Below are positions 25,670-57,535 of a stretch of DNA of 64,000 nucleotides, piece after piece. Numbering within the stretch: position 1 is the stretch's first letter; the number at the start of each line of letters is the position of its first letter. The stretch is from the NCBI GenBank assembly GCA_000482145.1, contig AUXH01000023.1, positions 1 through 64,000 on the forward strand. The letters run 5' to 3'. Source of the DNA: Strigomonas culicis. Lineage: Eukaryota > Euglenozoa > Kinetoplastea > Trypanosomatida > Trypanosomatidae. A model generated the notes under the pieces. It ran no database searches, was not told the origin of the DNA, and saw only the letters and a list, made by a program, of their open reading frames with translations. Position numbers and translations under genes: made by a program.

Positions 25670-27263
25670 GCTGAAGCTCAGAAAGAGACTATGTTAATGA
25701 AAAATACAAAAGAGTAAAGGAGTACAAGAAAGAAGTGGTAGAAGTAGCCTTGATGAGGTCCGTCAAATTGCGTGGAGTAGTGAAAATCAACAACAAAAAA
25801 AAGTGAGAAAACAAGAAAAAAAGCTTCTGTCAAGGAAACAAACAAACAAAAAAAAAAAGAATCAAGTATTGTAACAGAAAAAAGAAAAAAATAGTAACAA
25901 AAAGCAAACGCGTGTAGATGTACAATAGAAGAAAAAAAAACTTGTTATCAAAATGAGTGTTTAAAAGGTAAAAGAGAGGAAAGAGGAAGGGGTAGAAAAA
26001 TGAACAAAAGACTACAAGAAAAACTGCAAACTCAATTTTAGTACATTGGAAAATGGAGTATCCGATACAACTATGCGTCTTTGCGAAAGACAGTGGAGTA
26101 ATAAACGAGAAAAAAAAACAGAAAACAGCAGGATAATAAGAAAATGAAAAGGAAAACTCGAGTGCAATACTCCAAAATAACTCTTCTCCTTATCTGTATC
26201 ATAAAACCTAAAGATCAAGGCCACACATTAACCTGCATACAGGGAAATAAGAAATGCATTCCCTATAGATTAACCAAAAAAATACGTTAAACCAATGTAT
26301 ACATTGCATCGAGAAAGGAAATAATGCCACGAAGCTGTTACTTAGCTTTATCCTCTGAGGTATAAGACAAAACAGAATGTGTTTCCTTTTGCTGCATATA
26401 TGCCTCCGTGTGCACGTGTATTTGAAGGTGTACGATAAAGCTGTTAATTTTTCTATGTGTGTTCTATGCTAGTGCTGAGGGGTAAACAAAGGTTGACACT
26501 CCATTTGAGGAAATCTAGAGAGAAAAAATTGTCCAAATGAAAAGAGAACAAGAAGAAGTAGGGGGAAAAAAGGTTCATGCACCAACTAAACTGGAATGCA
26601 AATGCGGCAGAGACAAATATCACAGAATCAAGCGCTAAGAGTGAAAAGGAGGGGGAAAAAAAAGACGCGCACAAGAGGGAGGTAAGGTTAATAATAAGTG
26701 TTACTGAAACCAAGTAATAGTGACGCTAGAGCAACCTTGTAGGGTAAAAACAAAGTAAGCTATGGGCAACGATGCCTTTTATCATTATGTGCCGTTCACT
26801 GCTCTCATTAGTATTATTTTCTGTATTATTTCTTAATTCCTTTACAAGCCTTCACATAAAAATTGAAACAGAAAAGAGAATACTCGGCACCATTCTGCAA
26901 AATGCTAGCTACTTCTAGAACCCTACTTTGCATAACACTTTAGTTTTTTTTTTTAAGGGAAAGGAAAAATGTAATCCTAAGTAGTACTAATTGTTAAAGT
27001 ATGTTTTTAGTTTTGTTTTGTTTTGTATTGCATCCTATTCTCTTTTTTTTATTATTATGTGCATAATACTTTTTTTTCCCACTTAACTTGCTGCTTTATT
27101 ATGATTATCATTATCATATCCTTTAGCTTGCGAAATAAAAACAATAAAAATACGTACAACAAGAAACCCGTCAGATAAAGCGACACGTACGTATAGTTTT
27201 TTTTCCTGTTTTTACAGATTCCATAACAGATAAAAACTGAATGACAATCAGCCACGCATGAGT
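25670..27263. other. Long intergenic region, no gene seen
   Basis: 1594 bases of AT-rich sequence between the ACP gene and the repeat-protein gene, the longest spacer inside the minus-strand unit. Segments 26040-26110 and 26330-26480 are somewhat less AT-rich, but no frame, tRNA or C/D-box snoRNA arrangement was recognised. It probably holds the long 3' UTR of the ACP mRNA and the 5' region of the 22745 gene. Confidence 0.6.
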
Positions 27264-27716
27264 TTACTTAGCCATGGGGTTCTGGGCAATGTATTCAACG
27301 GCATCGGGGATAGACTGGATCTTCTCAGCGTCGTGATCAGGAATGTCTAGAATAAACTCCTGTTCAATAGCGAAAACAACTTCCACAACATCCAAAGAGT
27401 TGAGACCCAAATCGTTGACAAAGTGAGACTCGGGTGTCACCTTGGAAGCGTCCACTTTTTCAAAGTTCTTAACAACCTCAAGAACACGAGTCAGCACGTC
27501 GTTCCTGTCGAGCAAGTAGTGACCACTACGAGCGGCAGGCTCCTCATCGTGACCGCCACCAGAATAAAAACGAGAGAAGGAAGCGCTCACAGGGAGGCTG
27601 ACCATAGGCTTGGCAGAAACAGTGTTCATCGCCAAGCGAGCGGCAGGGAGAGACACGAAAAGTCCTCCAACGGTGATGCGCCGAACAATGGAACGAGCTA
27701 CAAGGGTGCGCTGCAT
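27264..27716 (-). CDS. ACP: Mitochondrial acyl carrier protein
   Basis: A 150-residue acyl carrier protein for type II mitochondrial fatty acid synthesis. It also serves, by family knowledge, as a structural partner of LYR proteins in respiratory and iron-sulfur assembly. Residues 1-50 are Arg/Ser/Val-rich without acidic residues and form a mitochondrial presequence. The carrier domain (about 68-148) contains the phosphopantetheine attachment motif GLNSLDVVE with Ser107. It continues with FAIEQEF and IPDHDAEKIQSIPDAVEYI, the conserved helix-3 region. Asn replaces the more common Asp before the serine (NSL instead of DSL). It is the first gene of the minus-strand unit, directly beside the strand-switch region, so it should be the promoter-proximal gene. 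Confidence 0.97.
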   Translation of the reverse strand: MQRTLVARSIVRRITVGGLFVSLPAARLAMNTVSAKPMVSLPVSASFSRFYSGGGHDEEPAARSGHYLLDRNDVLTRVLEVVKNFEKVDASKVTPESHFVNDLGLNSLDVVEVVFAIEQEFILDIPDHDAEKIQSIPDAVEYIAQNPMAK

Positions 27717-27868
27717 TTCTCGGTGTTGCGGGATCGTATGCTAGCCAGCAAGAAATATATATATTATTATATCGAAAAGCTTGAAAACTAGTGAAAAGCA
27801 GTGGAATTCCAGAGAAGAGAGGCAAAGAAAACGAGAACACAGTAAAAAAAAAAACACAACAGTTTTTT

Positions 27869-27890
27869 GTATATATATATATATATATAT
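27869..27890. repeat. (TA)n repeat
   Basis: A clean TA dinucleotide run in the strand-switch region, just upstream of the ACP gene. Non-coding. Confidence 0.9.
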
Positions 27891-28178
27891 TCTACAGTGT
27901 AGAGAAACGGCGAAAAGTGTAAATGAAAGTGAAGTGAGACGGAGTGAATACACCAACATGAAAAAAAAAATAGTGTGAACATAATAGACGCAGTTGGTTT
28001 AGTCAACTTTTTTTAAAAAATATTTACCAACACATTGCTTTGCTGCATTATTTGTTTCGATACAACAAAATACATATCAACGAAAGTGATTGGAAATGAC
28101 ATGTGGTTTCTTCCTAAAAAAGAAAAAGTATAACATATTGAATTGACATAGGTATCTGGAAAAAAAATGATGTGTTTG

Positions 28179-28181
<3 letters not shown>

Positions 28182-28215
<34 letters not shown>

Positions 28216-28218
28216 ACA
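28182..28218. repeat. (CA)n repeat
   Basis: A CA repeat, interrupted once near 28211, immediately left of the GC-rich island. On the minus strand, the direction of the ACP transcript, it reads as TG. Confidence 0.9.
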
Positions 28219-28254
28219 AATCAGAAAAAGTCTATATATAACACATAGAGAAGA

Positions 28255-29515
28255 GCCCCTTCACAGCCACACGTTTCACGACCAGAGAAACCGCGCCCGG
28301 GCCACGCCGCCGCGCGAAAAGGCAAAAGCCCCGGGACGCCGCGGCCGCCCGGACGACGATCGGGCGCCTTTCCACACCGGGGGGGGCCCGCGGGCCAAAT
28401 GGAACCTCGCGGCACCTGGGGATTATCGCCAGGTGGCAAGCGGGGGGGAGGGGGGGGGGCGACCGCGCCCTATCACAGACCCCCGCCTCGCCACACACGC
28501 ACGGGCCGCGTGAGGAAAAACACACAAACTGGCAGTGAAAAAGGAACGGCGGCCGCTGGGAAAGGGTTCGCGAGTGAATACCCCGACCGGCATCGGCCTG
28601 GTGGTGCGGCCTAGACACGGCCCTCTGGGGATGGCGCCGCGGGATAATTGGGGCAAACGTTCCCTCGGCGGATCGGCCGGACGGGCTAGGGATGTGTAGC
28701 ATTGAAACACCACGTTGGCATGGACGTTTGCTAGCACACCTTGCAAGAAGATGGTGGACCGCCGCCCCCGCCAGCGGGAACGCACCGAGGAAAAACCAAA
28801 AGGACCAGGCACCATGGCACCCCGCAACTAGTTTTGGTACACACACCATGTCCAAAGGGTGTTCTTTGTCTTGCTTCGCTTCATTTCCAGCCTTTTTTTT
28901 TTTCGGGCGCGGACTTTGCTCATCGGTGGTGCGGGGGCGCCGTGTTTTTTTGCTATGTTACCAAGGGCGGTTCCTAGCCACGGGGTGTGGCAAAACCATG
29001 TCATCCGCGACGCGGCATGGGTGAAGGAGGCCGGCATCTCCTCGCCTTTGTCCCTGCGAATGGAGAGGCCCGCCCGCTCCACTTTTTTCCAGGGGCGGCT
29101 CTTGTTTTCCCCCACGGCCGAGGCGGGGGATGCCGTTGCGGGTGCTGTTTTCCTCCATTCTCATGCAGATGAAAAGTGCTTGGGCGACCTTTCCTCCTGG
29201 CCCATGGCTGGCGCTGGTTCGTTGGCGCGGCTTTGCGGCCGGCGGGAGCCACCGCCCTCGGTGTTGCGAGGAATGGAAACCGTCCTTGGCCACGGGCGGG
29301 GGACTTTGAAGACCCGTTGCGCCGGGCGCGGCGGTGCGCGCGGGGGTTCGTTTGGGGTGGAGGGAAACCCGCCCCGCGTCCTTTATCCGCAAAGGGGCTT
29401 TTCCCGAGTCCCGCTTCGCCACTGGTGGCATCTTTTTTTATGGGTCGCTTCACCTTTTTGGGGCGGCGATCCTTAATTCTTTGGGGGTTTGAGCGGCGCT
29501 GCGTTGGTGGTTTGT
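28255..29515. promoter_or_regulatory. GC-rich island with opposing strand skew; candidate bidirectional initiation element
   Basis: Composition changes abruptly at both edges from AT-rich to GC-rich. Hand counts give 28261-28860: A138 C191 G203 T68 (66% GC) and 28861-29460: A67 C173 G198 T162 (62% GC). The excess of A over T on the left becomes an almost equal excess of T over A on the right. G exceeds C slightly on both sides. Poly-G runs occur at 28379-28386 and 28442-28459. No ATG-initiated frame with a domain, no tRNA and no repeat array was found. The position at the centre of the divergent switch suggests an initiation role; a foreign insertion is the main alternative. Confidence 0.55.
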
Positions 29516-31208
29516 AATTAATTAGAGGTGATGAATGACCGTGACGTGAAAATTGGGCTAGTACATAGACAATAGGAACGACACGTTTTTCTTTACCCTT
29601 TGTTTATATAAACAAGCGGTGCATACATACATACATATAAGTATTGTATTTATATGTGTACATATATACATCAGATACGGTCATCGTATTGACGCACCCG
29701 AACAAGGAACTCCCCTTTCTCACTTTTTTTTTCTGTAAGCGTAAAAGCATTCCATTACATCACTTCCAATGTGAGCGGAACGTTGCGTCAGGTGCTTTTT
29801 TTTTTTTTACAACATTTTATAAATACGGACACAAACGCTTTTTTTGTTGTTGCGTGATCGGGCTCACTCTTTGGGTTAAATAAAGCAGGATACAACATTT
29901 GCACAGATAATCAGGCAATAGTGAATAGTCTAAGTGAATTTTTTTTTTAGCAGTGAAAATGCTCTGTATGAACCTCTTAATTCGTTTTTAGTTAGGTGTA
30001 ACGTTACCTTTCGCTTCGTTGTTTTGTGAATAAAATGAAACAATTTATTGTGAGTTTTGCTTTAAACTATGTCTTAACACGTACACAGAAACTAACATAT
30101 CATACATATATGTATTATTACACATGTGCAAGTGGTCCGCTCCTTTTTTTTTGTTTGGACCCACAGAAAATATTGATGGAGTAGGTAAGAAGTCCGATGG
30201 AGAGTAGAACGCCTTATTCGCAATTGAGAAGAGTGCATCATCAAAAGATTATTTATTTCTGTTTCCCTCTTCCTGTCCACCTTGAGAAGATTTCTTTTCT
30301 TTCTTTCGATAATATGTCAACTCACATCTGTGTTTTATCATGACAGGGCTCTTGCGATTTGGAGAATACAGATGACGTATTTCTCGCATATCGCATGAGG
30401 CAGTATTTAGCTGTTTATTTTATAATAAGCAATGTACAGAAAGCACAATAATAAACTAATACAATTTATTAGTTCAATGTTTTTCATCGCTTTTGATTGC
30501 ATCAATGACGAATACACTCAGGTGGCATAAACCATATTTCTTTCTTTTTTTTTTTGTTTCCTTTTTCAATATATTTTTATGAACTGAGTACTTTTATCAT
30601 TTTTTTTTGTATTTGCCTATGTGTAGGAAAGGGAGGGGAAATAAGTCAGAGTATTTCACGTGGATCAGGGGTCCAATTTCTTCTTAATACATATTTTATT
30701 ATTATTATTATTGCGCTCTCTTTTTTTTTTTGCTTGTTTCATATTATTTATACCATTACTCCCTATTTGTTAATATATTTATATATTAAGGTGAGGAGAC
30801 CTTACGACTGTGAAGATGAATAAGAAGTCGCTAAAATACATTTATTGGACTCTTACTAATGCTGCCGTTGATAATAATAGGAATGCTATTCTCATTTTTT
30901 CTTATTGTTTTATTAATAGCAATACTACCACTAATAGTATTCACAATAACAGTTAAAAGAACAAGCAAATACCCATAATGACCTTTACTATTCACAACAG
31001 ACTTTTGGTAAGTTTGGGGTTATTTATAGGAATTGTTGAGGCTTTGCTATGCTTATTGTCCTTGCCACTCTTTATTTCAACATCTTTTGGCTTTTTTTTC
31101 TTCCTTTCGTTCCAGCTCACATGTGTTCACTGATATTCTTTTATTCCCTCCGATCTGAAATGGTTCTAAAGTAACGTAAGTCAATTTTAAGTATATTACT
31201 ATTATAAA

Positions 31209-31934
31209 ATGTCCAACGAAAAACCGAAAGTGTTTGGAGCGGTTGTTGTCCGACTTGCGGACCGCATGATGCTGTCTAAAGTTATGGGTGTGTCATGCGA
31301 GGGATTCACTATTCCGAGCACCGCCTGGGCCGATTTGGTGAGCCGTTGTGGAGCACCTCACTTTCGGACTTCTGCCTTCTTACAAGTTGCGTCAGATGCG
31401 TCACCGTCGCAGGAAGTGCAGCTGTCGTATCATATCATGACAGACGAGGCACTTGGATATGCAGTTCTTTGCACCAAGTCCATGAGTAGGCGAGAGGGGC
31501 ATGCCGTTTTGGACGATCTTTCCGTCCTCTTCAATAAAATGTTTGTTGAAAATGCGGCAAAGCTGAACCCCAAAACAGTGGAAGTTTTTACGCAACCTGC
31601 TCGCGATCTACTGATCAAGACAAGTGCGGGTGCATCCGACGGTACCCAGGACAAGGTAAGACAAGTTAAGCAAGCTGTTGATGAAGCAAAAAATCTCGCT
31701 CTCGACAACGTGGACAAGGCGATACAGAGGAGTAAGCGAATTGATGATATTGTCCATGCTTCTGACGATCTCCAGTTTCAGGCCCAAGGCTTTCAGCGCA
31801 GCAGTCGCGAGTTAAGCGACCAAATTTGGTGGAATTCGGTAAGAGGAAAACTGATAATTGGCGGGACAGCCGTTGTTTTTTTGCTAATGGTTTTCTTTGT
31901 TTTTTTAATTAATAAAGTCATATTGGGATTTTAA
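31209..31934 (+). CDS. Longin R-SNARE-like protein (VAMP family) with Ala at the zero layer
   Basis: A 241-residue membrane-fusion protein. A longin-type domain (about 5-130) is followed by a SNARE coiled coil (about 150-208) and a C-terminal membrane anchor (214-236), with a two-residue-long lumenal end. The juxtamembrane WW (207-208) is as in VAMPs. Aligned on the GF...WW spacing of synaptobrevins, the central zero-layer position is Ala184, where R-SNAREs have Arg. It should act in vesicle fusion in the endomembrane system; the compartment is not clear. It is the first gene of the plus-strand unit. Start chosen at the ATG at 31209. Confidence 0.85.
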   Translation: MSNEKPKVFGAVVVRLADRMMLSKVMGVSCEGFTIPSTAWADLVSRCGAPHFRTSAFLQVASDASPSQEVQLSYHIMTDEALGYAVLCTKSMSRREGHAVLDDLSVLFNKMFVENAAKLNPKTVEVFTQPARDLLIKTSAGASDGTQDKVRQVKQAVDEAKNLALDNVDKAIQRSKRIDDIVHASDDLQFQAQGFQRSSRELSDQIWWNSVRGKLIIGGTAVVFLLMVFFVFLINKVILGF

Positions 31935-34611: not shown

Positions 34612-36600
34612 ATGATTAGCGTTCCTCAGAGCTGGTCTTGCTCGTCCTCACCCTGTGTATGTGTGCAACTGGGCGCCGATGACCGTCACTTTCTTTGTAA
34701 TGTACGCACTGGATCGAGTTCTTCCGTTTTTTTTGAATGGAGACCCACCATCTTACTTGACAGCAGAGAGACGAGAGTTATGCTAATGCAAGATTTTAGC
34801 ACTCCGGAGCTCCACCAGGTGCTTGCTCGTGAGAGCGCTGGCGGGTTATGGTGGACCTACACCCCATGTCACCATGAGACAGCCGCTCCCGGAAGCGTCA
34901 CCTTACGTCTTTGGCGTCCTCACATTCGATACGTCGCCAAGTCGATTGTGTTGAGAGGCCCTCGCCTCGGAACTCGCGCCACACCTGCTCTCCTGAAAGC
35001 AGAACTTGCTGGGCTCAGCGTTGCTACTGGCGCTGTGGTACGTACATCCCTGGGCTCGTACACCGTTGTGGGAATGGAGCTCATGGAGGGGTACAAGGGG
35101 GTAACACTCGTGGGTGCCGCCTGTCGCATTCGGCTCAACGACGGCAGCGCACCGCAGCCAAACAGAGCGGACCACACTGCCCTGCCTATTGGACTTGATA
35201 AGGAGCAGGCGAGACTCACGGCCGTGATTCGTTTTGCATTGCAGACGCGGTTCACCCAGTCCTTTGTCCTCGTGCGCGGCCCCCGTGGCTGTGGGGTGAC
35301 CACTACGGTTGACGCCGCCCTCGCGTGCATCGGTGACGAGGCGGTTCTTGTCCCATGGAGTTTCACTTTTAATGCGGTTGACACAAGCCAGAGCTGCAAT
35401 GCGCGCGTGGTTGTCGTGCGCATTCACCCGTTGGAAGAGTACTTTCCCGCAGTTGACGACGGCGAGGCCCTTCTTGCGCGGTGCAAGCTGGAGAGTGACG
35501 TCCGCATCCTCTCTGACGCCCGTGCCGGCGGCCAGGGCCACTCCGTGGTCGTGGTCGGCTCTTCCCACCATTACGGAAGTGACTGCGCCGTGTCTGTGGT
35601 GGAGCAGTGTTTCACCACCCACATTGTACTCGCGCTTCCCGACGCGACCCTCCGCGCGAAGCTCCTTGCGACGGTGCGCGGCGGGGCGGCGCACGACTGG
35701 GCAGAGGTGGCGCATGCGATGGTGGGCCTGTCCGCGGCGGAGGTGCTGGAGGCCGCACGCGACCCGACGTGGGATCGGCCAGCGGCGTTCCAAAAGGTGG
35801 AGTGGTCAGATATTGGTGGTCTGCGGGAGGTGAAGGAGTGCCTCTACAAAACGCTCATCCTACCCTACCGAAATCCAGAGCTGTTTGAGCGGTTTGGCCT
35901 CACGCCGACGAAAGGCATGCTCTTGTACGGCCCTCCTGGATGCGCAAAGACGACGTTGATCAAGGCACTCTGCTCCGAGAGCTATTTTTCACTGATTTAC
36001 TTGGACTCTGCTAATGTGATCAGCGCATACGTGGGAGAGAGTGAGCGACGACTGCGGGACGTGTTTGCCAAGGCGTCGAAAATGGCTCCCTGCATCGTTT
36101 TCTTTGATGAGGTCGAGGTGCTTGGGGGACGACGTCAGTCGTCTGCGGCCCGATCAAGCGAGCAGGTGCGCTTGTTGTCAACGCTGCTCACAGAGCTGGA
36201 TGGGTTTGCACCCACCAAAGGTGTGTGCTTCATTGGTGCCACCAACGTGCCGCACTTGATCGATCCTGCACTTCTGCGTCCTGGAAGGTTTGACTACCTC
36301 CTGCGCGTGCCCTTACCGGGCATGGAGGACAGGTGTGATATCCTGCGGACGTCGCTGCAAAAAACGGCAGTGAACATTTCGCGAATTGCCGCTCTGACGG
36401 ACGGTTTCAGTGGCGCCGATTTGAAGGCGTTCTGCGCCGGCGTCTTGCTCGAGTTGCTGCGTGATGGCGATGCTTCTCTTGTTTTGCAGGACAAGGAGCA
36501 GATCACATTGCTGTTTGAGAATAAGCTTAAAGCATTTAATTGCACTACGTACGACTTATCTGCCCTCACTAATTTTGAAAATGAGCACCACCTTGCCTGA
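34612..36600 (+). CDS. Tandem AAA ATPase, AFG2/SPATA5L1-like, with inactive first domain
   Basis: A 662-residue type II AAA protein. The second AAA domain (about 403-640) is intact: the WSDIGGL entry motif, Walker A GPPGCAKT (440-447), Walker B IVFFDE (495-500), ATNVPHLIDPALLRPGRFD (second region of homology with arginine finger) and FSGADLKAFC. The first domain has lost its motifs. Walker A reads GPRGCGVTT with Val229 in place of Lys, and the Walker B position reads VVVVRI instead of hydrophobics-DE. The D2 sequence, especially GCAKTTL, resembles AFG2B/SPATA5L1 and other Cdc48 relatives involved in late 60S ribosome maturation. PEX1/PEX6, which also have a degenerate D1, are the main alternative. 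The first ATG is at 34612. Confidence 0.83.
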   Translation: MISVPQSWSCSSSPCVCVQLGADDRHFLCNVRTGSSSSVFFEWRPTILLDSRETRVMLMQDFSTPELHQVLARESAGGLWWTYTPCHHETAAPGSVTLRLWRPHIRYVAKSIVLRGPRLGTRATPALLKAELAGLSVATGAVVRTSLGSYTVVGMELMEGYKGVTLVGAACRIRLNDGSAPQPNRADHTALPIGLDKEQARLTAVIRFALQTRFTQSFVLVRGPRGCGVTTTVDAALACIGDEAVLVPWSFTFNAVDTSQSCNARVVVVRIHPLEEYFPAVDDGEALLARCKLESDVRILSDARAGGQGHSVVVVGSSHHYGSDCAVSVVEQCFTTHIVLALPDATLRAKLLATVRGGAAHDWAEVAHAMVGLSAAEVLEAARDPTWDRPAAFQKVEWSDIGGLREVKECLYKTLILPYRNPELFERFGLTPTKGMLLYGPPGCAKTTLIKALCSESYFSLIYLDSANVISAYVGESERRLRDVFAKASKMAPCIVFFDEVEVLGGRRQSSAARSSEQVRLLSTLLTELDGFAPTKGVCFIGATNVPHLIDPALLRPGRFDYLLRVPLPGMEDRCDILRTSLQKTAVNISRIAALTDGFSGADLKAFCAGVLLELLRDGDASLVLQDKEQITLLFENKLKAFNCTTYDLSALTNFENEHHLA

Positions 36601-55834: not shown

Positions 55835-57535
55835 ATGGCGTCGCTTCTAGGAGACACCTCCCTTTTCGACGACGACGGGGCTATTCGCGACGTTGGCTTA
55901 TTTATGAAATGCATTTATACGTACTGGGTGGCGAAAGGCTACGAAGGTGTTGTTGTGGACTCCATTGTGGACTTTATAAATGCTCTGTTTTTGTTTTTTG
56001 TGACTGTCGTTTTCACGGTCTTTTTCAATTGGGAAGAAGCCGCTTCGTGCACGGAGAGTACGTGTCACTACAGTAATCTGCTACAAAAAGGCTCCCTTCC
56101 ATACGTTGGCTATAGGAGTACGTGCGGCCGTGGCTGTGCCGCCGTTCTTCTCGTCACCATGTTTTCGATCATGGCGTACCAGTGTGCTGAAATGGTGCGG
56201 TCGTTTCGCTTCACCAAGGAGGTGGATTTGTTTGTTCGGAGAGGCAACAGCTTTGATGGCGTTGGCATCTTTTCGTACCTGTTCTCCCATGTGCTGGGCG
56301 TGCGCGACGAGCGCTATTCCAGGCCGTCTGTGGCTTCCATGCCGTGGTCGGACTTCCTTTCGATTGTGTGTCGCAGAGTAAACGAGCGACGCCTGCTACG
56401 CTATGGCCGTGCACAGCAAGGCAACGAGTGGAGCCCCGAGTTGGCACTCTGTTCCCTCTTACAGAGGGAGAATTACGTTGCCCTACTCTATAAAAGCGAG
56501 GTCACACACACTGGTGCCTTGTGTTTCATGGATGCGGGTATGATCTTTATGCTGGTCGATCATCTCCTCGCGAACTTGGGGTATCTGCAGTCAGCTGAGC
56601 GGAAAACGGTTTCTTTTCGCCTATCCATTTGGGTCCGAGCGGCACACTACGTCTTGTTGTATCCGTTTATCATCACGTATCGCGTGCTGAAAATGCTGAT
56701 CAAAAATGTCGCCGAGATTCGTGGCAGCTTTAATACACTAATGCTCTCTTGTTGGAATGACAACGGGGTGTGGTCGTTCCGCGACTACAACGAGGTGGAT
56801 CATCGACTGGAGGAGCGTCTCGGCGAGGCTCTCGAGATTGTCGTACGAATGAAGAGTCGACTTGTGGTGTCGCACTCCATGGCGCATCTGGTGCGGCGTG
56901 TCAGTGGCACTGGTGTGTTTGTGATGCTTGCACTGTCCTTGTTCAACTCGTCCCTTCTGGTGTCGGGACGACTGGGTGGCATGCACATCATGTGGTGGCT
57001 GACCACGTCTCTTCTGTTGTTTCAGTGCTTCGGCGAGCCAGACTTACGCGCGCGTGAGTACAACTACCGAAGTGATGTCGCCGCGCTGACCGTCTTGCTC
57101 CATGATGACAGCCCTGTGTGGCTGGAGTCCGAGACCGCGTGTGCCGCCCACCTGCAGAAGTTCTTAAGCTACCGCGTCTGGACACTGCTCACCAGTTTGT
57201 TGCGCACGTGCTGTTATCCTTTTATTCTGTGCTGTGCGCTGCGCGACGGCAGCATCGAGACAATGGTGCGGGTGATCGAAGACAATACGGAGTGTGTGCA
57301 TGGTCTGGGCTGCTTTCTGCGAGACAGCGTGCCCTCAGCCCAACGCGTGAGGGAGGCTCACGAGGAGATGGTGTCCTTGCGGCCCCCTCCCTCACGCCCC
57401 TGGCGCCCGTGCGCCGATGTAGCCGATGACTCTGACACGCTTATGCGAGAAGATACGCGTAGCGATAGCGAAGATCTACTGTCTGTGTCCAGCTGTGCTC
57501 CCATGTTTCCTTCAGATGTACAATCTACACGATAG
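55835..57535 (+). CDS. ATG9: ATG9, autophagy lipid scramblase
   Basis: A 566-residue multi-pass membrane protein with ATG9 hallmarks. The N-terminal block GLFMKCIYTYWVAKGYEGVVVDSIVDFINALFLFFV resembles the first ATG9 helix (YYREKGxxCIxLSRxxDLLTLxF). The central block WSFRDYNEVDHRLEERL (near 310-326) is the most conserved ATG9 segment (RxFNExxHxFxxRL). Several further hydrophobic helices follow. The protein is shorter than yeast or animal ATG9 (about 800-1000) because the disordered N- and C-terminal extensions are small; the C-terminal 80 residues are Asp/Ser-rich. ATG9 vesicles seed autophagosome membranes, and the family scrambles phospholipids. The start at 55835 is the first ATG. Confidence 0.88.
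   Translation: MASLLGDTSLFDDDGAIRDVGLFMKCIYTYWVAKGYEGVVVDSIVDFINALFLFFVTVVFTVFFNWEEAASCTESTCHYSNLLQKGSLPYVGYRSTCGRGCAAVLLVTMFSIMAYQCAEMVRSFRFTKEVDLFVRRGNSFDGVGIFSYLFSHVLGVRDERYSRPSVASMPWSDFLSIVCRRVNERRLLRYGRAQQGNEWSPELALCSLLQRENYVALLYKSEVTHTGALCFMDAGMIFMLVDHLLANLGYLQSAERKTVSFRLSIWVRAAHYVLLYPFIITYRVLKMLIKNVAEIRGSFNTLMLSCWNDNGVWSFRDYNEVDHRLEERLGEALEIVVRMKSRLVVSHSMAHLVRRVSGTGVFVMLALSLFNSSLLVSGRLGGMHIMWWLTTSLLLFQCFGEPDLRAREYNYRSDVAALTVLLHDDSPVWLESETACAAHLQKFLSYRVWTLLTSLLRTCCYPFILCCALRDGSIETMVRVIEDNTECVHGLGCFLRDSVPSAQRVREAHEEMVSLRPPPSRPWRPCADVADDSDTLMREDTRSDSEDLLSVSSCAPMFPSDVQSTR

Follow-up and report, generated by a model that had tools for sequence, protein, structure and literature searches.

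A GC-rich island with an inverted A/T skew at a divergent strand switch of Strigomonas culicis: a probable core of a bidirectional transcription start region

Background

At the presumed transcription initiation sites of Leishmania major, a long G/C tract is the only motif reported, and the AT content is raised over 1-2 kb downstream (PMC2679053). The strand switch of Leishmania chromosome 1 is described as relatively AT-rich, with 50-54% AT vs 35% elsewhere in the genome (PMC1805754). As outlined in PMC7511235, the nucleotide skews of L. major mostly track transcription, the coding strand having a positive G skew and a negative T skew; at chromosome-internal acetyl-H3 sites, the T skew alone changes polarity; and at origin/kinetochore-marked sites, the G and T skews both change, even in head-to-tail contexts. 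That report links the local excess of T at origin sites to leading-strand replication. In Trypanosoma brucei, synthetic GT-rich elements have been reported to induce the deposition of H2A.Z as well as directional transcription (PMC5579346).

Here we analyze a strand switch of Strigomonas culicis, a member of the Strigomonadinae, the subfamily described as symbiont-bearing trypanosomatids. The stretch of DNA that was analyzed (hereinafter the window) consists of 64,000 nucleotides and corresponds to C23:1-64000, where the names C1, C23 and so on denote contigs of the S. culicis assembly (17.7 Mb, 670 contigs). An earlier inspection of the letters of the window (hereinafter the sequence-only reading) had singled out a GC-rich, skew-switching island and likened it to the GT-rich start regions of African trypanosomes.

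Results and discussion

A GC-rich, apparently non-coding island between two divergent gene units

The genes of C23 are encoded on the minus strand from 461 to 27716 and on the plus strand from 31209 to 65525, with the island between them and centered on the switch, so that this is a true divergent strand switch, as had been proposed. The features of the switch region, in order of position, are as follows:

27264-27716, minus strand: gene for a mitochondrial acyl carrier protein (homologs are named acyl carrier protein), the first gene of the leftward unit
27717-28254: AT-rich left flank, GC 0.316 over 538 bp
28232-28849, minus strand: 205-aa ATG ORF in the left arm, judged non-coding (codon score -53 bits)
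28255-28859, minus strand: left arm of the island, GC 0.66, AT skew +0.34, GC skew +0.02, T above A in the outward (minus) sense
28450-28459, plus strand: a run of 10 G, the longest G tract in the island, besides which there are a G8 at 28379 and a G7 at 28442
28860: A/T skew change point by maximum likelihood, the putative center of divergent initiation
28860-29515, plus strand: right arm of the island, GC 0.61, AT skew -0.44, GC skew +0.10, G+T 0.614, T above A in the outward sense
28955-29476, plus strand: 173-aa ATG ORF in the right arm, judged non-coding (codon score -51 bits)
28958-29431, minus strand: 157-aa ATG ORF in the island, from the ORF list
29516-31208: AT-rich right flank, GC 0.327 over 1693 bp
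31209-31934, plus strand: gene for a synaptobrevin-type SNARE (PF00957, E 7e-24), the first gene of the rightward unit

The island as a whole (28255-29515) contains 64% GC and was judged non-coding, whereas its flanks contain 32% GC, in agreement with the earlier description of a GC-rich island in AT-rich DNA. Recounting yielded A137 C192 G203 T68 (GC 0.658) for 28261-28860 and A67 C173 G198 T162 (GC 0.618) for 28861-29460; the previous counts (A/T 138/68 on the left and 67/162 on the right, with 66% and 62% GC) are correct to one base, and the claimed excess of G over C in both halves (203 vs 192 and 198 vs 173) holds as well. The 266 non-ORF segments of 200 bp elsewhere in the window have a mean GC of 0.355 and a maximum of 0.57, compared to a mean of 0.634 for the 21 segments of this length within the island. 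Two Leishmania-type start-region features, an AT-rich surround and a G/C tract of at least 10 bases, are both present. A CA repeat occupies 28185-28210, about 45 bases to the left of the left edge of the island. A search of 25700-31300 against Rfam returned only two sub-threshold microRNA matches (E 0.17 and 0.57), both in the AT-rich flank; no tRNA genes were found in the 64-kb window, and no repeats longer than 40 nt within 27700-31250.

That the island contains no ATG-initiated gene, as the sequence-only reading had it, is true in substance: the two longest ORFs (205 and 173 aa) appear non-coding by codon score and gave no Pfam match at E 0.01, and none of the 1477 candidates qualified as a homolog of the 205-aa ORF at E 0.01 or better. 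Taken literally, the statement does not stand, given the presence of ATG ORFs of 205, 173 and 157 aa. The search for a bacterial or vector origin that had been suggested along with that reading produced no match of the island in plasmid, E. coli and phage collections.

The acyl carrier protein (27264-27716) is 72% identical to its Novymonas ortholog and 63-66% identical to the Trypanosoma orthologs over the full length; an AAA ATPase encoded at 34612-36600 shows 100% identity over 404 aa to S. culicis STCU_07497, and at most 46% identity to other matches with trypanosomatid names. The genes for these two proteins flank the switch, and their homologs in Leishmania martiniquensis, LSCM1_03373 and LSCM1_03380, carry neighboring locus tags; in five Leishmaniinae, but not in two Phytomonas, the contigs that carry the matches to the two proteins are equal in length. 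Given the adjoining locus tags and the pairing in five Leishmaniinae, the neighborhood, and perhaps the switch itself, may be old.

The GC content of third codon positions in C23 falls toward the switch from both sides, from 0.72 to 0.54 on the left (rho 0.66) and from 0.77 to 0.54 on the right (rho 0.53), the values being 0.72-0.77 at 20-40 kb from the switch and about 0.54 near it. In C1, it is 0.52 within 2.5 kb of the switch, 0.71 at 2.5-5 kb and 0.83-0.88 beyond, with no trend along the whole length (rho -0.06), the fall being confined to about 5 kb.

Inversion of the A/T skew at the center of the island

The mirror symmetry at about 28860, which the sequence-only reading had described as limited to A and T, was borne out: the maximum likelihood change point of the A/T composition is 28860 (LR 28.1), a score reached by none of 300 permutations of the A/T letters of the island, and there is no accompanying G/C inversion. 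The left-minus-right difference in A/T skew is +0.63 (700 bp per side), which was matched at none of 5484 places drawn at random from C1 and C23, with divergent switches left out. The flip amounts to a z of 8.3 for A/T and 1.1 for G, that is, the polarity of T changes and that of G does not.

An excess of T over A on the sense strand is the ordinary state between genes, where the AT skew is -0.18 in C23 and -0.10 in C1, and a similar skew is observed at third codon positions (-0.21 and -0.16, respectively); over the whole coding sequence, it is +0.03 in C23 and +0.09 in C1, so there is no T excess. The inversion in the island has the sign of this unit-wide bias at weakly constrained sites, and the outward AT skew of the arms (-0.34 and -0.44) is stronger than the bias itself (-0.10 to -0.21).

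The outward G+T content of the arms is 0.550 on the left and 0.614 on the right, in agreement with the fractions given earlier (55% and 60%; 0.60-0.61 on the right by our count), and falls within the range of intergenic DNA inside the units (mean 0.527, sd 0.052, maximum 0.641, n=60). These values are too modest for a claim of a GT-rich promoter in the window, and because the organism is Strigomonas culicis, the African-trypanosome result is an extrapolation here; thus, the proposed link to GT-rich promoters of African trypanosomes is at most weakly supported. Other parts of the sequence-only reading do find support, namely, the divergent setting, the apparent lack of coding function, the absence of matches in the plasmid, E. 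coli and phage collections, and the recurrence of islands at other switches.

Islands at other divergent switches

Gene strands were mapped with Pfam family searches, short slices and, in the case of C1, tiling of the first 120 of 158 kb. GC-rich islands without a codon signal were detected at all eight divergent switches examined, with lengths of 0.39-2.9 kb, 56-81% GC, and 400-bp flanks of 30-44% GC:

C23:28255-29515, 64% GC: the island of the window, given
C1:6027-6415, 81% GC: switch found by tiling
C2:54100-54537, 73% GC: strand flip established by slices and a helicase match; stretch placed on a run of 12 C
C15:61256-61876, 72% GC: read for a run of 10 C, strand flip then obtained from family searches
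C16:52967-53367, 78% GC: read for a run of 10 C, strand flip then obtained from family searches
C39:18045-20966, 56% GC: located by gene strand alone
C103:17967-19241, 59% GC: located by gene strand alone
C148:16038-16464, 75% GC: located by gene strand alone

The C2, C15 and C16 islands are not independent of composition because C runs were the reason for reading the C15 and C16 regions and determined the placement of the C2 stretch. The minus-strand side of the C103 switch consists of one WD40 match below the family cut-off (25.7 bits), the slices having left the strand unsettled. Further slices searched for switches yielded none besides that in C2. The gene strands at C222, C113, C165 and C9 are convergent, and the count of eight refers to divergent switches only. 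The comparison of strand switches across the genome that had been proposed together with the sequence-only reading, which was to be abandoned if no similar islands existed, thus revealed such islands at each of the examined sites.

In all eight cases, the difference in A/T skew between the two sides of the island has the sign expected for an outward T excess; in three, it lies beyond all 5484 controls, and in the other five, it is matched by 132 to 491 of these. The within-island change point passes the 5% level with the expected sign in four islands (C23, C2, C39 and C103) and fails in the rest (36, 87, 16 and 21 of 300 permutations for C1, C15, C16 and C148, respectively). Within the C16 island, the A/T skew has the sign opposite to the expected one (left -0.44, right +0.14; z -2.7). 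The skew difference about the midpoint of the C39 island is unremarkable (reached at 286 of 5484 random places), probably because the switch lies off center, whereas the change-point test for this island is strong.

In C39 and C103, as well as in an additional island in C22 (see below), both A/T and G flip, with G flip z values of 5.6, 6.7 and 8.0, respectively; no G flip was detected in the compact C1 and C2 islands. One arm of each of these three islands exceeds the intergenic G+T maximum of 0.641, namely, the left arm in C103 (0.720), the right arm in C39 (0.683) and, just above the maximum, the left arm in C22 (0.646), and the opposite arms are all below it (0.558, 0.575 and 0.598, respectively). 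With respect to the skews, the window island fits the T-only pattern of the L. major acetyl-H3 sites, and C39, C103 and C22 fit the G-and-T pattern of the origin/kinetochore sites; the flip of both skews at the center that characterizes L. major origins of the AcH3/J/KKT1 type is not seen in the window island.

Specificity for divergent switches

We surveyed 186 kb of contiguous sequence (the first 120 kb of C1 and C23), which contain 65 intervals of at least 100 bp between predicted genes; in the C1 part, 2 of the 37 picked ORFs, located on the other strand, were dropped. When the intervals were ranked by the best GC-rich segment, the two divergent ones, with segments of 1175 and 389 bp, took the top two places. 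The intervals ranked third and fourth were set aside as overlooked genes, one with an RRM match and the other with a 138-aa frame at a codon score of +53.5 bits, and the longest best segment in the remaining 61 is 59 bp. Hence, with the overlooked genes removed, GC-rich segments longer than 59 bp are present in 2 of 63 non-coding intervals in these 186 kb, both of them divergent. With looser settings (350-bp windows, GC of at least 0.60, poor codon fit), four more stretches of C1 were picked up, all of them overlapping ORFs or gene starts.

Divergent switches are not the only places where the class occurs: GC-rich islands are present also in C22, C13 and C18, where the nearest genes that were identified are not divergent; these could be head-to-tail starts. 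The C22 island (C22:55501-58946) spans more than 3.4 kb and is non-coding with 65% GC, the A/T and G/C skews both flipping strongly at 56497; to its right lies a minus-strand gene, and far to the left, a minus-strand signal. This island is a candidate for a head-to-tail start, an origin or a centromere. The islands at C18:49256-49626 and C13:78336-78716 are flat, about 0.4 kb long, and contain runs of 14-15 G or C; the genes found on both sides are on the minus strand, and these islands might be internal start or stop sites.

Attempts to find islands by simple compositional signals were set aside. T-free runs did not separate islands from coding DNA. Ten places with runs of 10 C, taken among the matches listed in contigs C1-C29, included two divergent-switch islands (C15 and C16), three islands (C22, C13 and C18) without a demonstrated divergent switch, and five genes or stretches of ordinary intergenic DNA. 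A suspected switch in C25 proved to be a gene end.

Features shared by the islands

The islands of the window, C22 and C39, the three that were searched against the genome, each match only themselves, and when 11 islands were compared all against all (E 0.01), no match was longer than 54 bases. The 9-mer CGGCGCCCC occurs in seven of the eight divergent-switch islands; it was rejected as a shared motif because a 9-mer present in at least seven islands was also obtained in 7 of 400 dinucleotide-shuffled sets and in 45 of 300 sets of GC-matched coding sequences, and no non-homopolymer word common to the islands was safely beyond chance. Runs of at least 10 G or C are present in seven of the eight islands, including four of the five that were not found through such runs. 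What the islands have in common is the GC content, the G/C tracts, the AT-rich surround and the outward excess of T over A, rather than sequence.

These islands resemble Leishmania start regions in being located between divergent units, in the G/C tracts, AT-rich surround and change in T-skew polarity, and in the low level of sequence conservation. Unlike the AT-rich Leishmania switch, every examined switch of S. culicis contains a block of 0.4-2.9 kb with 56-81% GC inside the AT-rich zone. Similarly to the T. brucei start regions, as described in PMC5579346, the islands are dispersed, motif-poor, located at divergent switches and strand-specific in composition; in contrast to the GT-rich starts, the S. 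culicis class shares GC content and not GT content, the arms in the window having 55% and 61% G+T. GC-rich DNA at a strand switch is also a feature of T. cruzi and T. brucei centromeres, as reported in PMC3276562. Unlike these centromeres, the window island contains no long repeats, and every divergent switch that was examined has an island.

Vertebrate CpG-island promoters are GC-rich, often bidirectional and motif-poor start regions, and the island is similar to these in being GC-rich and motif-poor and in lying at divergent units. Unlike in vertebrate CpG islands, there is no CpG-depletion contrast because the observed to expected CpG ratio is 0.99 in the island and 1.05-1.17 in the genome around it. 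A full-text literature search, assessed by titles and the openings of abstracts, returned no study that deals with divergent switches in general as sites of GC-rich islands, or with the switches of Strigomonas, which does not prove that there are none.

A putative bidirectional start region and the alternatives

The sequence features described above suggest, with moderate confidence, that the island forms the core of a region from which RNA polymerase II starts in both directions, serving two divergent polycistronic units; it most likely marks transcription start in both directions and is best read as an enlarged form of the Leishmania G/C-tract core in AT-rich surroundings. Under this scenario, the GC-rich core with its G/C tracts would set the local chromatin, through exclusion of nucleosomes and loading of a variant histone and pre-initiation factors; the polymerase would start on both strands around 28.86 kb and run outward through the arms and then through the AT-rich zones, and the outward excess of T over A would be a record of this transcription. 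The start signal would then be encoded by composition and not by a motif. What speaks against reading the T excess as such a record is that T exceeds A on the sense strand also between genes and at third codon positions as a matter of course. The presence of a discrete GC-rich core in a neighborhood that is driven the other way argues against regional mutation bias, and the contrast between the two points either to selection acting on a start-region core or to a conversion process that is very focal, of which we judge selection to be more likely.

The main rival to the start-region reading is origin function, followed by focal conversion, and the three are not mutually exclusive. If the island were primarily a replication origin, the strand bias would be the leading-strand imprint of outgoing forks. 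The predicted origins of T. cruzi, as reported in PMC7310030, average 65% GC and 1083 bp, which is close to the window island, and origin-active sites of L. major are described as flipping the G and T skews by leading strand, regardless of the direction of transcription (PMC7511235), as the C39, C103 and C22 islands flip both skews. However, the window island flips T only, the pattern given in the same report for non-origin, chromosome-internal acetyl-H3 sites of L. major, the compact C1 and C2 islands show no G flip, and the T. cruzi origins are said to be preferentially subtelomeric and enriched within coding DNA (PMC7310030); on balance, we regard a primary role as an origin as rather unlikely. 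Somewhat more doubtful still is the possibility that the island is a functionless by-product of focal GC-biased gene conversion, whereby the open chromatin of a start would attract breaks, the repair of which would lift the GC content. The lack of motifs above chance and of other copies of the three searched islands is what would be expected if only composition arises in this manner, but the process would have to be sharply focal and opposite to the trend of the neighborhood, with its flanks of 32% GC and third-position GC that falls toward the switch, and something else would have to account for the stronger asymmetry of A and T between the strands of the arms.

That GC-rich strand-switch domains have been described as centromeric in T. 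cruzi and T. brucei (PMC3276562), along with the properties of the C22 island, namely, its length of more than 3.4 kb, the minus-strand gene on its right and the flip of both skews as at the kinetochore-marked sites of L. major, brings up a centromere-type domain as another explanation. We consider it very improbable for the window: the known domains span 11-16 kb and contain degenerate retroelements according to the same source, compared to an island of 1.26 kb with no repeat longer than 40 nt at 27700-31250 and no Pfam match for its two tested ORFs, and islands at eight of eight switches appear too many for one centromere per chromosome. Finally, the ATG ORFs of 205, 173 and 157 aa could hint at an unrecognized real gene, or else the island could be a foreign insertion or an assembly artifact; given the negative codon scores of the two longest ORFs, the lack of homologs of the 205-aa ORF and of plasmid, E. 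coli or phage matches, and the recurrence of islands at all eight switches, we find this explanation hardly credible.

Conclusions

The start-region reading lends itself to a broader, tentative generalization that we deem possible rather than probable. Every divergent polycistron start of S. culicis might be a composition-encoded promoter, that is, a GC core without conserved sequence that is surrounded by an AT-rich zone and has arms with an outward excess of T (in the long islands, of G+T). Two sub-classes would be distinguished: compact cores of 0.4-0.6 kb with 72-81% GC would be transcription starts only, and islands longer than 1.2 kb with G and T flips (C39, C103 and C22) would double as origins or centromeres. 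The window island, with its T-only flip, would be intermediate in build between the two.

How RNA polymerase II locates its start sites in trypanosomatids, which lack classical promoters, is a long-standing question. If the proposed reading is true, the start regions of S. culicis would be GC-rich islands without a shared motif, and the notion of composition as promoter would be directly testable, the islands being small, discrete elements that are open to deletion, swapping or replacement with a shuffled sequence of the same composition. The split between long and compact islands would additionally provide a forecast, from sequence alone, of which starts double as origins.
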